From: Candidatus Saccharimonadota bacterium
GTDB lineage: Bacteria > Patescibacteriota > Saccharimonadia > Saccharimonadales > Saccharimonadaceae
Assembly (NCBI GenBank): GCA_017432365.1
Contig: JAFRJG010000006.1
Location: 1 to 64,000 of the forward strand
Length of the DNA stretch: 64,000 bases
Direction of reading: 5' to 3'
A program made the translations under genes and the position numbers. The notes beneath the pieces were generated by a model. It was not told the DNA's origin and did not search any database. It saw only the letters and a program-made list of their open reading frames with translations. Positions 18,697 through 34,798 of the stretch are shown piece by piece. The stretch's first letter is position 1. Each line of letters starts with the position of its first letter.

Positions 18697-20096
18697 AATG
18701 GTTATACGACCGACTAGAGTATTTCTGCATCATCTTCCTTTTTGGTGCTCTCTTTTTTTTTATTCTCACCCATTACTCCCCCTCGCTCGCCACTAAAACC
18801 TATGCTGAAACCCTCTTCGACACTTCCCGCGTCCACCGTATCGACCTAATTCTCGCCGCTTCCGACTTTGACCAAATCCTCGAAAATCCGACCGAAAAAA
18901 TTAAATATCATGCCGACATCACGATTGACGGAGAAACCATCCATGACGTCTCTGTCGCGACTCGTGGTAACGCTACGTTGTTCTCCGCTGCTGCCCTCGA
19001 CGACTTCTCAGCTTATTCCTATAAAATCAATTTTGAGAAATGGAACGAAGCGACGAATTATCGCGGACTTGACGCCCTTTATCTCAATAACTTTTTCAGC
19101 GACCCGAGCTACCTGAAAGATTTTCTCGCGTTTGAACTGATGCGCTCCGCCGGCGTAGCGACGCCGCTCGTCGCCTATACTGAAGTTTATATCAACGACT
19201 CTCTCCAGGGGCTTTATCTCGCCGTCGAGGGTTACGATAAATCCTTCCTCGCTCGAACCGGAAGCGAGTCAACCGCCGCCCTGCTCAAGCCCGAACCGCT
19301 TGCTCATGACAACTTCCGCCTCAATGCTTTATCCTCGAACTCTCCCGACGAAGCGAGCCTGATTGTCCGCGACATTTATGACGAAGGCTACGACACCGGC
19401 GGCGCCGACCTTAAATATCGCGATGATAATCCCGCAAGCTACCCTGCGATTTTTGAAAATAGCCTCACCAAACTCACCTCCCGCGACCAGGCTCAAGTTA
19501 TCTCCGCGCTCAAGTCTCTCGAGACTGGCGACGCTCGAGAGTATTGGGACTTCGACGCCCTCGCGCGTTATCTCGCCGTCCATAATTTCATCGTCAGCGA
19601 CGATTCCTATATTGGTCTCATTCCTCACAACTTCGTTCTCAGGCTCTCTCAAGACCGGCTTTCCTTCCTCCCTTGGGACTATGACATCGCCTATCGCGTT
19701 AACTGGGATATTGAAGCCTATCCGACCTTTGAAAATCTCGTCAATATCTCTCTCGACTCTCCGCCTATTGGTCTCCCCGAAGAAAGTCGTCCGCTCTGGG
19801 CAGTCCTTAAACATGACCAAGCTTTCCAAAGTCAATACTTCTCCATCGCGCGCGACTTGCTCAGTCGCGAAGTTCTCTCCGGCGCCCTCTCCGAGAAAAT
19901 TACTGCGACTCGAGGGCTGATTTATAATTACGTCCTCGAGGACCCGAGTCGCCGCAGCGATATGTCCGAGTTTGAGTCTAGCGTTGACTATCTTGATGAA
20001 TTTCTCTCTCTCCGCGCCAGCTTCTTGATTGACGACCTTAATAGCTCCGAACTTCTGACTTCTCTCGACCTCCGTGCTTCTCCTGCCGAGTTTTAA
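18693..20096 (+). CDS. Secreted CotH-kinase-like protein
   Basis: 467 aa, overlapping GH57 by ATGA. An N-terminal hydrophobic helix (FCIIFLFGALFFFIL) anchors or exports it. CotH fold markers: RIDLILAASDFDQIL, VSVATRGNATLFSA, YKINFEKW, LDALYLNNFFSDPSYLKDFLAFELMRSAGV, GLYLAVEGYDKSFL, VHNFIVSDDSYIG and LPWDYDIAYR, whose DYD is the likely metal-binding segment. CotH proteins are atypical kinases in spore coats and many secreted systems; its target is unknown. Its place after two glucan genes is odd and may reflect only transcription. Confidence 0.8.
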   Translation: MKWLYDRLEYFCIIFLFGALFFFILTHYSPSLATKTYAETLFDTSRVHRIDLILAASDFDQILENPTEKIKYHADITIDGETIHDVSVATRGNATLFSAAALDDFSAYSYKINFEKWNEATNYRGLDALYLNNFFSDPSYLKDFLAFELMRSAGVATPLVAYTEVYINDSLQGLYLAVEGYDKSFLARTGSESTAALLKPEPLAHDNFRLNALSSNSPDEASLIVRDIYDEGYDTGGADLKYRDDNPASYPAIFENSLTKLTSRDQAQVISALKSLETGDAREYWDFDALARYLAVHNFIVSDDSYIGLIPHNFVLRLSQDRLSFLPWDYDIAYRVNWDIEAYPTFENLVNISLDSPPIGLPEESRPLWAVLKHDQAFQSQYFSIARDLLSREVLSGALSEKITATRGLIYNYVLEDPSRRSDMSEFESSVDYLDEFLSLRASFLIDDLNSSELLTSLDLRASPAEF

Positions 20097-20101
20097 GCCT
20101 T

Positions 20102-20129
20102 AAAAAAGCCCCGATTGCTCGGGGCTATA
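20102..20129. terminator. Shared terminator between convergent genes
   Basis: Stem GCCCCGA/TCGGGGC with loop TTGC. The A-run at 20102-20107 gives a strong U-tail for the minus gene; the plus side is weaker. Confidence 0.75.
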
Positions 20130-20134
20130 TTTAG

Positions 20135-20923
20135 TTAGTAGAGTTTTTTCAGTTCGCTTGGGACTTCGCGTCCGAGCCGCCGATATAGCGCCTCAACAAC
20201 AAGAATCAGAATCGACCGATAAAAGTACCCCCGGGTTAAAATTAGCCAGCCGGCATAAGCCAGGCTCACGCCGTCGCCCTGCCGTTTTAGCTTATCGCCG
20301 AGAATCCGAAATGCTCGCTTGTCGTACGGTCCGAACCCATACAACTTCTCCGCCAATTCGAAATCCGGACGACTCCCCTTCAGTTCATACCAGCCAATCG
20401 TCATAACGAACGCTAGCTTGTCCATGACGAAGAGAAATCCTTTGTCACGATAAAACGGCTCCATCGTCCTCAAAATCCGCCGACGTGTTTCGGACGGGTA
20501 GAACTTCAGGTATCGCTGCATCAGCTTCTCTTCGACTCTATTCTTCTCGTTGCGGTCGCCTTCTCCGTTATGGGGAATATCCCCCAGCAGGTTTTCCGGC
20601 ACATCGTGCAGTTTCGCTGCTTCGCTTTCATGAGCGAAGTTAACACCGGGCATCCACGCCCCGTAAAACTCGCCCGTGAGCCAAATTAAAAAGTCCACCA
20701 TTAGTGTATGCTCATAATCATTTTCTTGATGTGGCTCCGCCTTGCGCGTCTCGGGGTCCACTTCATCGTAACGAATACGTCGAAAGCATAACCTTTGAAA
20801 CCCTACCCTCGGAATCAACACCAAGTCCGTATGCTCGATAAACGCCGCAACCAAATAATCCGCCATTACCTCCGGGCTTTCATACTCAAACGACTGAATC
20901 GTCTCTACGTTAAAGTACTCCAT
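20135..20923 (-). CDS. HD-domain hydrolase (YfbR-like)
   Basis: 262 aa. The HD signature is spread over DYEHTLMVDFLIWLT (first His) and EAAKLHDVPENLLGDIPHN (HD pair plus GDIP), matching the HD_3/5'-nucleotidase YfbR-like group; HD proteins often hydrolyse nucleotide phosphates. A hydrophobic stretch near the C-terminus (YRSILILVVEALY) could be a helix against the membrane. The start at 20921-20923 is set by AAAGGTGG about 10 nt upstream; the open frame before it crosses the tRNA-Ala gene. Substrate unknown. Confidence 0.72.
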   Translation of the reverse strand: MEYFNVETIQSFEYESPEVMADYLVAAFIEHTDLVLIPRVGFQRLCFRRIRYDEVDPETRKAEPHQENDYEHTLMVDFLIWLTGEFYGAWMPGVNFAHESEAAKLHDVPENLLGDIPHNGEGDRNEKNRVEEKLMQRYLKFYPSETRRRILRTMEPFYRDKGFLFVMDKLAFVMTIGWYELKGSRPDFELAEKLYGFGPYDKRAFRILGDKLKRQGDGVSLAYAGWLILTRGYFYRSILILVVEALYRRLGREVPSELKKLY

Positions 20924-20990
20924 AAACCTACCACCTTTCTCTAGGAAACTTCGATCAACGGGAACCCCCTCACTATACCATACCTCCCCT

Positions 20991-21021
20991 AAAAATAAAA
21001 ACAGAACCCAAACGGATTCTG
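20991..21021 (-). terminator. Terminator of tRNA-Ala(GGC)
   Basis: Minus-strand hairpin CAGAA/TTCTG with an inner CC/GG pair, followed by a long U-rich tail. It lies between the tRNA and the HD gene. Confidence 0.6.
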
Positions 21022-21027
21022 AAAAGT

Positions 21028-21103
21028 TGGTGGAGTGCAGGAGATTCGAACTCCTCACCTCTTCCATGCCATGGAAGCGCTCTACCAAATGAGCTAGCAC
21101 CCC
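21028..21103 (-). tRNA. tRNA-Ala (anticodon GGC)
   Basis: 76 nt; acceptor GGGGTGC/GCACTCC with G3:U70, anticodon loop ATGGCAT, T-loop TTCGAAT, encoded CCA. Confidence 0.95.
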
Positions 21104-21131
21104 AAACACCTTTTTATAGTACCACGTCTTG

Positions 21132-21140
21132 TGTTAAAAT
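21132..21140 (+). promoter_or_regulatory. Extended -10 of trpS
   Basis: TGT-TAAAAT, 6 nt before ATG; leaderless. Confidence 0.6.
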
Positions 21141-21146
21141 GGAAGT

Positions 21147-22160
21147 ATGAAAACAATCCTCACCGGTCTCCGCGTTAATAGTGAACTCCACCTCGGACAT
21201 TACCTCGGCGTTATCAAAAAACTGGTCGCTCTCTCGAACCGCTACTCTAAAACAGGCTACGAAATCAACCTCTTCATTCCCGACCTTCACTCTATCATCA
21301 CCCCGGTTGATGACGACCTCCAAACTAATACCCTGAAAAACATTAAATACTTCCTCGCCTCCGGTCTCGAGCTGAATGACCACGTTCATATTTATCGCCA
21401 GTCCCGCGTTCCCGCACATGCCGAACTTGCCTGGGTTTTGAACTGTTTCGCGACGACCGGAGAACTTTCCCGTATGACCCAGTATAAGGATAAAAGTGCC
21501 GGAAAGACCTCAGTCGGCGTCGGGATTTTTGATTATCCGGTTCTGATGGCAGCCGACATTCTCCTTTATGACGCCGAATATGTCCCCGTTGGCGAAGACC
21601 AGTTCCAACATCTCGAGTTAACTCGCACCCTCGCGGAACGCTTTAATCATCGCTACGGGGAAACTTTTACTCTCCCTCTCGCCCCGAAACAGCAGGTTGA
21701 GTTTATGAACCTTGAGGCTGGCGTCCGGATTCGCGACCTCGTCAATCCTGAGAAGAAAATGTCAAAATCGACCCCCGCAGAGAACTCAAAAATCATGTTG
21801 AGCGACTCTCCCGAACAGGTAAAGAAGAAAATCATGTCCGCTACGACCGACTCTTTCGGAGAAATTGACTTCGACTTCAAAACCCGCCCAGGTATCTCCA
21901 ACCTTCTCGTGATTGAGTCTCTCTTGAAAGACGAACCTCTCGAAACAACCCTCAGTCGTTGGCGGGGAACGACGCGCTATGGCGACCTAAAAGCCTCCGT
22001 TGCCGGAACGCTAGCTGCCTTCCTTTCTAATCTCCAGTCCAAGGCTGCCGAGATTCCTGACGCTGACGTCCTCGCTATCTTCCCGGAGGGCGAAGCCTAC
22101 GCTAATAACCTCGCTAACCAAAAACTAACTAAAGTCTACGAAAAACTCGGACTTCGCTAA
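21147..22160 (+). CDS. trpS: Tryptophanyl-tRNA synthetase
   Basis: Class I synthetase (337 aa) charging tRNA-Trp, whose gene lies 5 kb upstream. HIGH-type motif LHLGHYLG near residue 14-21, the TrpRS signature ADILLYDAEYVPVGEDQFQHLELTR, and KMSKS in NPEKKMSKSTPAEN. Length is normal for bacterial TrpRS. Confidence 0.95.
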   Translation: MKTILTGLRVNSELHLGHYLGVIKKLVALSNRYSKTGYEINLFIPDLHSIITPVDDDLQTNTLKNIKYFLASGLELNDHVHIYRQSRVPAHAELAWVLNCFATTGELSRMTQYKDKSAGKTSVGVGIFDYPVLMAADILLYDAEYVPVGEDQFQHLELTRTLAERFNHRYGETFTLPLAPKQQVEFMNLEAGVRIRDLVNPEKKMSKSTPAENSKIMLSDSPEQVKKKIMSATTDSFGEIDFDFKTRPGISNLLVIESLLKDEPLETTLSRWRGTTRYGDLKASVAGTLAAFLSNLQSKAAEIPDADVLAIFPEGEAYANNLANQKLTKVYEKLGLR

Positions 22161-33536: not shown

Positions 33537-33543
33537 AAACCTT

Positions 33544-33957
33544 ATGAAATCCCCGAAAACCCCGGCTTCCGTTACCGTTAACCGCCGCGCTCGCTTCGAC
33601 TATGTTTTAGGCGACGAGCTAACCGTCGGTCTCTCCCTCTCTGGACCCGAAGTTCGCCTGATTCGCGACCATCATGTCACTCTGAAAGGTTCTTTCGTCA
33701 CCGTTCGGAATCACGAACTCTGGCTCAATAATCTCACTCTCGGCTCTGATACCGCCCGCAATCTCCGTCTTCTCGCAACCAAAAAACAAATCCTCGCTCT
33801 CGAAAAACAAAAAACTGCCGGTCTCACTATCGTCCCCGTTAAACTCCTCGCCGGCGGTCGCCATATCAAGCTCGTCATCGCTCTCGGCAAGGGAAAGAAA
33901 AAATACGACAAACGCGAGACTATCAAACAGCGCGACCTCGACCGTGGAAGGTTTTAA
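33544..33957 (+). CDS. smpB: SsrA-binding protein SmpB
   Basis: 137 aa. Partner of tmRNA in rescuing stalled ribosomes. Markers: NRRARFDYVLGDELTVGLSLSGPEVRLIRDHHVTLKGSFVTVRNHELWLNNL, where the usual EVKS(L/I)R is EVRLIR, then R-LLATKKQI (usual RKLLLHKxEI), and the basic end GKGKKKYDKRETIKQRDLDR. No tmRNA gene is visible in the window. Confidence 0.93.
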   Translation: MKSPKTPASVTVNRRARFDYVLGDELTVGLSLSGPEVRLIRDHHVTLKGSFVTVRNHELWLNNLTLGSDTARNLRLLATKKQILALEKQKTAGLTIVPVKLLAGGRHIKLVIALGKGKKKYDKRETIKQRDLDRGRF

Positions 33958-33958
33958 C

Positions 33959-34798
33959 ATGTCCGCCTCCTTGACTTCGCTTCGACTCTTCTCTTGGAAC
34001 GTCAACGGACTCCGCGCCGTCCTTAAAAAACACGCCCTCCAAGACTTCCTCGCCCAACACTCTCCCGACGTCCTCTGCCTCCAAGAAATCAAATGTCGCC
34101 CCGACCAGCTCGCTCCGCTCGAACTCCACGAACTCGAACAATCCTATCAAATCTTCTGGCACCCCGCCCAACGCCCCGGCTACTCCGGCACAGCGATATT
34201 GATAAGAAAAGCAATTACAAAACATAGTTTGTTTTCTGAGTATAAGGAGTCTAAAATTGCGAAGCAAATAAATATGTTTTGTAATTTATCAATAGCCGAA
34301 GGTCGTGTCCAAATTCTCGATTGCGGACGCTTTTTCCTCATCAACGTCTATACCCCAAACAGCAAACCCGACCTCTCCCGTCTTCCCCTCCGCCAAACCA
34401 CTTGGGACCCCGCCTTCCTCCATCTTCTCAAATCCCTAGAAACAAAAAAGCCCGTCATCACTTGTGGTGATTTTAACGCCGCCCACACCGACCTCGACCT
34501 CGCCCGCCCGAAACAAAACCAACACAACGCCGGCTTCACACCCGAAGAACGCCTCGGAATCGATAATCTCCTCTCGGCCGGCTTCCTCGATACTTTCCGT
34601 CTGTTGAACCCCGACGCTAAGCGCTACACTTGGTGGTCTCACTGGGGTCAAGCCCGAGCGAACAACGTCGGCTGGCGCATTGATTATTTCTTCACTTCCG
34701 CCTCGCTGAAACCCCTCATCAAATCCGCTAACATCCACGAATCTGTCCTCGGCTCCGACCACTGCCCCGTTTCGCTCGAACTCGCCCTCCCCGCCTAG
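33959..34798 (+). CDS. xth: Exodeoxyribonuclease III family AP endonuclease
   Basis: 279 aa. DNA repair nuclease: RLFSWNVNGLRAVLKK, CLQEIKCRPDQL (catalytic Glu), INVYTPNSK, TCGDFNAAHTDLDLA, WRIDYFFTS, SVLGSDHCPVSLEL. GGAAGG lies 8 nt before the chosen ATG, which follows smpB by 1 nt. Residues 80-113 are encoded by an AT-rich 98-bp inverted-repeat segment with codons (ATA, AGA, TTA) unlike the rest of the gene. This region replaces a shorter variable loop seen in B. subtilis ExoA-type proteins. The stop directly abuts the stop of the convergent gene at 34799. Confidence 0.92.
   Translation: MSASLTSLRLFSWNVNGLRAVLKKHALQDFLAQHSPDVLCLQEIKCRPDQLAPLELHELEQSYQIFWHPAQRPGYSGTAILIRKAITKHSLFSEYKESKIAKQINMFCNLSIAEGRVQILDCGRFFLINVYTPNSKPDLSRLPLRQTTWDPAFLHLLKSLETKKPVITCGDFNAAHTDLDLARPKQNQHNAGFTPEERLGIDNLLSAGFLDTFRLLNPDAKRYTWWSHWGQARANNVGWRIDYFFTSASLKPLIKSANIHESVLGSDHCPVSLELALPA
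34197..34294. repeat. AT-rich nested inverted repeat inside the exonuclease III gene
   Basis: Outer arms TATTGATA (34197-34204) / TATCAATA (34287-34294); inner arms AATTACAAAACATA (34213-34226) / TATGTTTTGTAATT (34273-34286); an 8-nt bulge on the left; a 46-nt centre. All perfectly complementary and read through in frame. Confidence 0.85.

Follow-up and report, generated by a model that had tools for sequence, protein, structure and literature searches.

An in-frame palindrome in the exodeoxyribonuclease III gene of a Saccharibacterium and the hairpin elements of its genus

The exodeoxyribonuclease III gene (xth) in the window (the whole stretch of DNA analyzed, 64,000 nt of contig JAFRJG010000006.1 from a Candidatus Saccharimonadota bacterium) carries a nested palindrome within its coding sequence, which raises the question of whether a palindromic element was inserted there and became part of the protein. 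A precedent is found in Rickettsia, where palindromic elements are hairpin repeats of ~100-150 bp that belong to several families and lie in frame in unrelated housekeeping genes (PMC10969869, review). The host genome of the present gene is 677 kb in size and belongs to a Saccharibacteria genus whose named relatives are largely from the ruminant gut. The gene, its loop and the parts of the palindrome are as follows.

33959-34798, + strand: xth (exoA), exodeoxyribonuclease III / AP endonuclease, 279 aa (TIGR00633, Foldseek)
34194-34298, + strand: variable loop between the GYSGTAI strand and EGRVQIL, residues ~79-113
34197-34205, no strand assigned: outer left arm TATTGATAA, pairs with 34286-34294
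34206-34212, no strand assigned: asymmetric bulge GAAAAGC, on the left side alone
34213-34229, no strand assigned: inner left arm AATTACAAAACATAGTT, of which the first 14 nt pair perfectly
34227-34272, no strand assigned: AT-rich centre of 46 nt, unlike known element cores
34270-34286, no strand assigned: inner right arm AAATATGTTTTGTAATT
34286-34294, no strand assigned: outer right arm TTATCAATA, whose base 34286 is also in the inner arm

The xth reading frame (33959-34798) is uninterrupted, and the palindrome lies in frame within it, corresponding to residues 80-112 of the product. The identity of the gene was established with the TIGR00633 profile (264.8 bits), and Foldseek matches of the protein included Mth0212, H. 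pylori XthA, B. subtilis ExoA and APE1. A smpB-like ORF (33540-33957) is found directly upstream of xth and would be overlapped if an alternative xth start at 33944 were used. The predicted structure had an overall pLDDT of 88 (~90 outside the loop), with residues 91-110 falling to 53-58. The preliminary description had proposed modelling whether the segment forms a surface loop, and in the predicted structure it does, at the low confidence that would be expected of an unconstrained surface loop. Thus, like the Rickettsia elements, the segment is in frame, free of stop codons and located in what is predicted to be a surface loop tolerated by the host gene.

Examination of the palindrome bore out the arms and 46-nt centre originally reported. 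The inner arms AATTACAAAACATA (34213-34226) and TATGTTTTGTAATT (34273-34286) are paired at all 14 bp; extended to 17 nt (34213-34229 and 34270-34286) they match at 94%, with one mismatch. The outer arms TATTGATAA (34197-34205) and TTATCAATA (34286-34294) span 9 bp when base 34286, common to the inner and outer right arms, is counted and 8 bp when only exclusive bases are. A 7-nt bulge (34206-34212) occurs only on the left. Fold z-scores were -4.4 as RNA and -4.5 as DNA. The best inverted-repeat score, 18.9, was not reached by any of 3000 dinucleotide shuffles (maximum, 15.1) or 2000 random AT-biased synonymous recodings, and a scan of the 64-kb window found no second inverted repeat of equal strength. 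When the loop's own synonymous codons were permuted, the mean score was 11.3 and the observed value was reached in 2 of 2000 trials; the peptide and codon set of the loop already favour pairing. The sequence is a real palindromic hairpin.

The codon usage and length of the loop are weak evidence for an insertion. The abrupt switch to AT-rich codons noted earlier is present, with a G+C content of 0.26 in the loop vs. 0.57 elsewhere in xth and a GC3 of 0.27 vs. 0.67. It is not diagnostic, however, because the loop of the nearest relative (genome G031, locus L007; 69% protein identity to the window xth) has it too and is in fact more AT-rich (G+C 0.14-0.17, GC3 0.05), but has no palindrome. That loop covers the same span with 22 aa, vs. 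36 aa in the window, and lacks an inverted repeat; the nearest relatives in general have shorter, palindrome-free xth loops. Loop length is hypervariable, ranging from 16 to >50 residues within the genus. Hence, the extra residues claimed for the window loop exist relative to canonical ExoA (~20 residues) and the closest species, but not relative to the order as a whole, where 32-33 residues are the norm and 33 is therefore unexceptional.

A search for further copies of the palindrome in the window's own genome gave none; only short chance matches were found there and among 174 genomes of the genus, and these matches sit in ordinary genes. Similarly, nhmmer profiles of four element families found in the genus (A-D, described below) did not match the window palindrome above the level of shuffled sequences. 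A likeness between its left arm (TAAGAAAAGCAATTACA) and family D (TAAAGAAAATTCACA) had been entertained and was dropped when the profile search found nothing. The identified elements typically have a GC-rich core, which the window palindrome does not, and its outer stem is offset by 2 nt from the one common to other xth loops. Dispersal as a repeated family, a feature of the Rickettsia elements, was found for families A, B and D and not for the window copy. Searches of Rfam returned only tRNAs in the window and no matches on the element loci, and viral contigs, considered as possible carriers, gave one chance match and otherwise none.

Comparison of 123 distinct xth loops placed that of the window fourth by inverted-repeat strength. 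Seven others scored at least 15 (L037, L198, L199, L012, L089, L145 and L036), all of them containing long, strongly folding hairpin inserts (e.g., z-scores of -13.5 for L037, -8.2 for L012 and -5.3 for L036). Six of the seven inserts can be recognized as belonging to family A or B; the seventh, that of L145, has another core. The family A copies in xth run forward in L036, L198 and L199, and those in L037, L089 and L238 are in the reverse orientation; family B occurred in L012 and L234; the loops of L010, L039 and L133 look like element remnants. In most species of the genus the site is without a hairpin, and on the xth tree the element carriers are scattered, with sister species differing from one another. 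In sister species, genuine palindromic elements from several unrelated families have thus repeatedly inserted into the xth loop. The hairpin of the L145 / L263 loop is strong (dG -68.5), and its core resembles none of families A, B and D. Additionally, the xth matches in genomes G066, G166 and G171 each contain a single in-frame TAA codon.

Elements of this kind extend well beyond xth. Family A was detected in 18 of 60 genomes and family B in 44 of 60; outside the genus, family B was seen in one other genus of the family and is therefore essentially genus-restricted. Family D was present in a few relatives and in the genome of the window. In that genome, a scan of 515 kb yielded 16 inverted repeats scoring at least 16, 11 of which scored at least 18, and a dinucleotide shuffle yielded none. 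Among these repeats, a family A copy lies in frame in polA, and two family D elements are in frame in a single valyl-tRNA synthetase gene, valS (L172; C9, ~19736-21294). In the valS of a relative, genome G116, the second of these sites also holds family D, whereas the first holds family B, and identical insertion sites have been reused in different species by different families. Two intergenic palindromes of the window's own genome (L157:13505 and L162:1060) have arms of another set (GGCGCCCTTAAAAAATACC), which enclose a centre resembling the family D core, and may represent one core with exchanged arms. When 58 family A and B copies were examined, 48 were inside long ORFs that the element does not interrupt and the rest were mostly intergenic. 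Among relatives, the genes bearing elements include polA, valS, der, tsaD, pheT, tatD, ileS and mnmA, as named from conserved motifs. Of 60 genomes of the genus, only 2 contained a Y1 transposase (PF01797); the window's own (G000) had none, and no target-site duplication was recognized for these elements.

The linker in tsaD is a second recurrent site, filled in many species and empty in others. Among the matches listed (99 genomes), 37 end at residue 122-140, and the examples examined have in-frame hairpins at this position. Empty alleles (n = 26) read YANWL, a short linker and FPLLA, and the window's own species has the short linker. Filled alleles (among loci L340-L359) contain unrelated in-frame hairpins with folding energies of -50 to -104 kcal/mol. 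One insertion is common to three sister species (L340-L342), which argues against an assembly artefact. A further family, C, with the centre TCGGACACGCTCAAGGGCGCTCGCCCAAGCTTACGGTCC, was found in tsaD of L343, L346, L348, L349 and L352.

Although cores are common between copies, each locus has outer inverted repeats of its own. Pairing between the left and right flanks of a given copy exceeded the 95th percentile for mismatched flanks in 18 of 19 cases for family A, 30 of 33 for family B and 10 of 10 for family D. In tsaD, the conserved FPL(L) codons at the right have their reverse complement in the left arm, over 11 nt in L348 and 10 nt in L350, while the best equivalent complement in the 26 empty alleles was 5 nt. 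In xth, the right side mirrors the conserved Ala-Ile-Leu codons of the left side, with 15 perfect bases in both L198 and L037. The left flank GCAATATTATTTTCCTCAG is common to L039 and the empty allele L149, which has no mirror arm. These two loci, xth and tsaD, indicate which arm is the original one, the other being a copy of conserved host codons. The outer stem of nine xth loops showed covariation, with 15 double-changed cells vs. 5.7 expected (0 of 500 shuffles), and the L198/L199 pair has matched codon changes; selection on structure, as well as arm copying, could produce such covariation.

Several explanations of the window palindrome were weighed against this background. It is unlikely, if worth serious consideration, that no mobile element was ever involved and that an AT-rich, hypervariable loop grew its arms by template switching from a chance seed. 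The palindrome has no detectable homology to any element family, the loop of the nearest palindrome-free relative is also AT-rich and arms in the genus do look flank-derived, all of which would suit such an origin; however, comparable inverted repeats at the xth site otherwise occur only in long hairpin inserts, and nested arms with a one-sided bulge, like those of the family A insertions in xth, exceed what a single switch event would give. A palindrome arising by coincidence in an ordinary AT-rich variable loop is very improbable: the protein and local codons do constrain the sequence, as the permutations of its own codons show (mean 11.3; 2/2000), but the score was never attained by shuffling (0/3000) or random recoding (0/2000), and the palindrome is unique in 64 kb and fourth among 123 loops.

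The hairpin might instead be functional as mRNA (or DNA), for example as a brake on translation or a determinant of xth expression, and be kept by selection. The covariation of the xth outer stem and the strong fold speak for this, but the site is free of hairpins in most species of the genus, and the occurrence of both orientations and of unrelated cores is better matched by turnover than by a conserved function, making a selected structure improbable. The chance that the insert is skipped by translational bypass or removed from the RNA, and so left untranslated, seems vanishingly small. Hairpin inserts in Magnusiomyces mitochondrial genes are bypassed, according to a work cited in PMC6649704, yet the in-gene inserts observed here are almost always in frame and stop-free, which bypass would not demand.

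Taken together, the window segment is probably a decayed or unclassified member of the genus's population of small palindromic hairpin elements. Its nested arms, one-sided bulge, site, frame and strength fit that population. The proposal that an inserted element turned into coding sequence is partly supported, by the recurrent site, the shorter loops of the nearest relatives and the predicted surface loop, but not by a second copy or by homology to a family. Membership is probable rather than proven, given the lack of a second copy and of detectable core homology and the slip of the outer stem by two bases; with this slip, descent from the same insertion as the common xth stem is at most possible.

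We propose that small hairpin DNA elements would colonize surface loops of housekeeping genes and persist because, being stop-free and in frame, they would allow the host protein to be made with a tolerated extra loop. The window copy probably descends from such an element, and its segment is presumably translated. The hairpin could seed a template switch during replication in which one host flank is copied, inverted, to the other side, so that arms would form or be maintained by flank copying, and the copy direction that survives might be the one that spares conserved codons from being overwritten. A tentative extension is that the insertion or maintenance of these hairpin parasites copies part of the host coding sequence, in inverted form, across the element by template switching, with the window palindrome being an old member that has lost its core. 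If true, every copy would acquire its own near-perfect arms in essential genes, with no dedicated transposase needed.

The Rickettsia palindromic elements and the coding palindromes of nematomorph mitochondria are the nearest relatives in kind. The former are alike in being small in-frame hairpin repeats of several families in unrelated housekeeping genes, and no shared sequence is claimed; the elements described here differ in occurring in Patescibacteria, in being read in both orientations and several frames and in having cores flanked by locus-specific inverted arms, with the window copy lacking a family. In nematomorph mitochondrial genes, perfect inverted repeats occur within coding sequence, the identity of their arms is maintained and template switching has been proposed (PMC6649704). 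Those palindromes have no shared mobile core, whereas conserved cores recur between loci here, and the window palindrome is by comparison short and imperfect. A similarity to REP/RAYT and MITE-type repeats is that these too are small dispersed palindromes, but, in contrast to REP/RAYT, the Y1 transposase is nearly absent here, copies are mostly within genes and no target-site duplication was recognized. The literature covered, which is incomplete, contained no description of such elements from Saccharibacteria or Patescibacteria.

Coding palindromes have been known as a rarity of Rickettsia and some mitochondria. Here, in streamlined, symbiotic Patescibacteria, several families occur in the most essential genes, at recurrent sites and with many filled and empty alleles within a single genus. 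These alleles make comparison possible both on how elements spread without a recognized transposase and on the origin and persistence of perfect arms in coding DNA.
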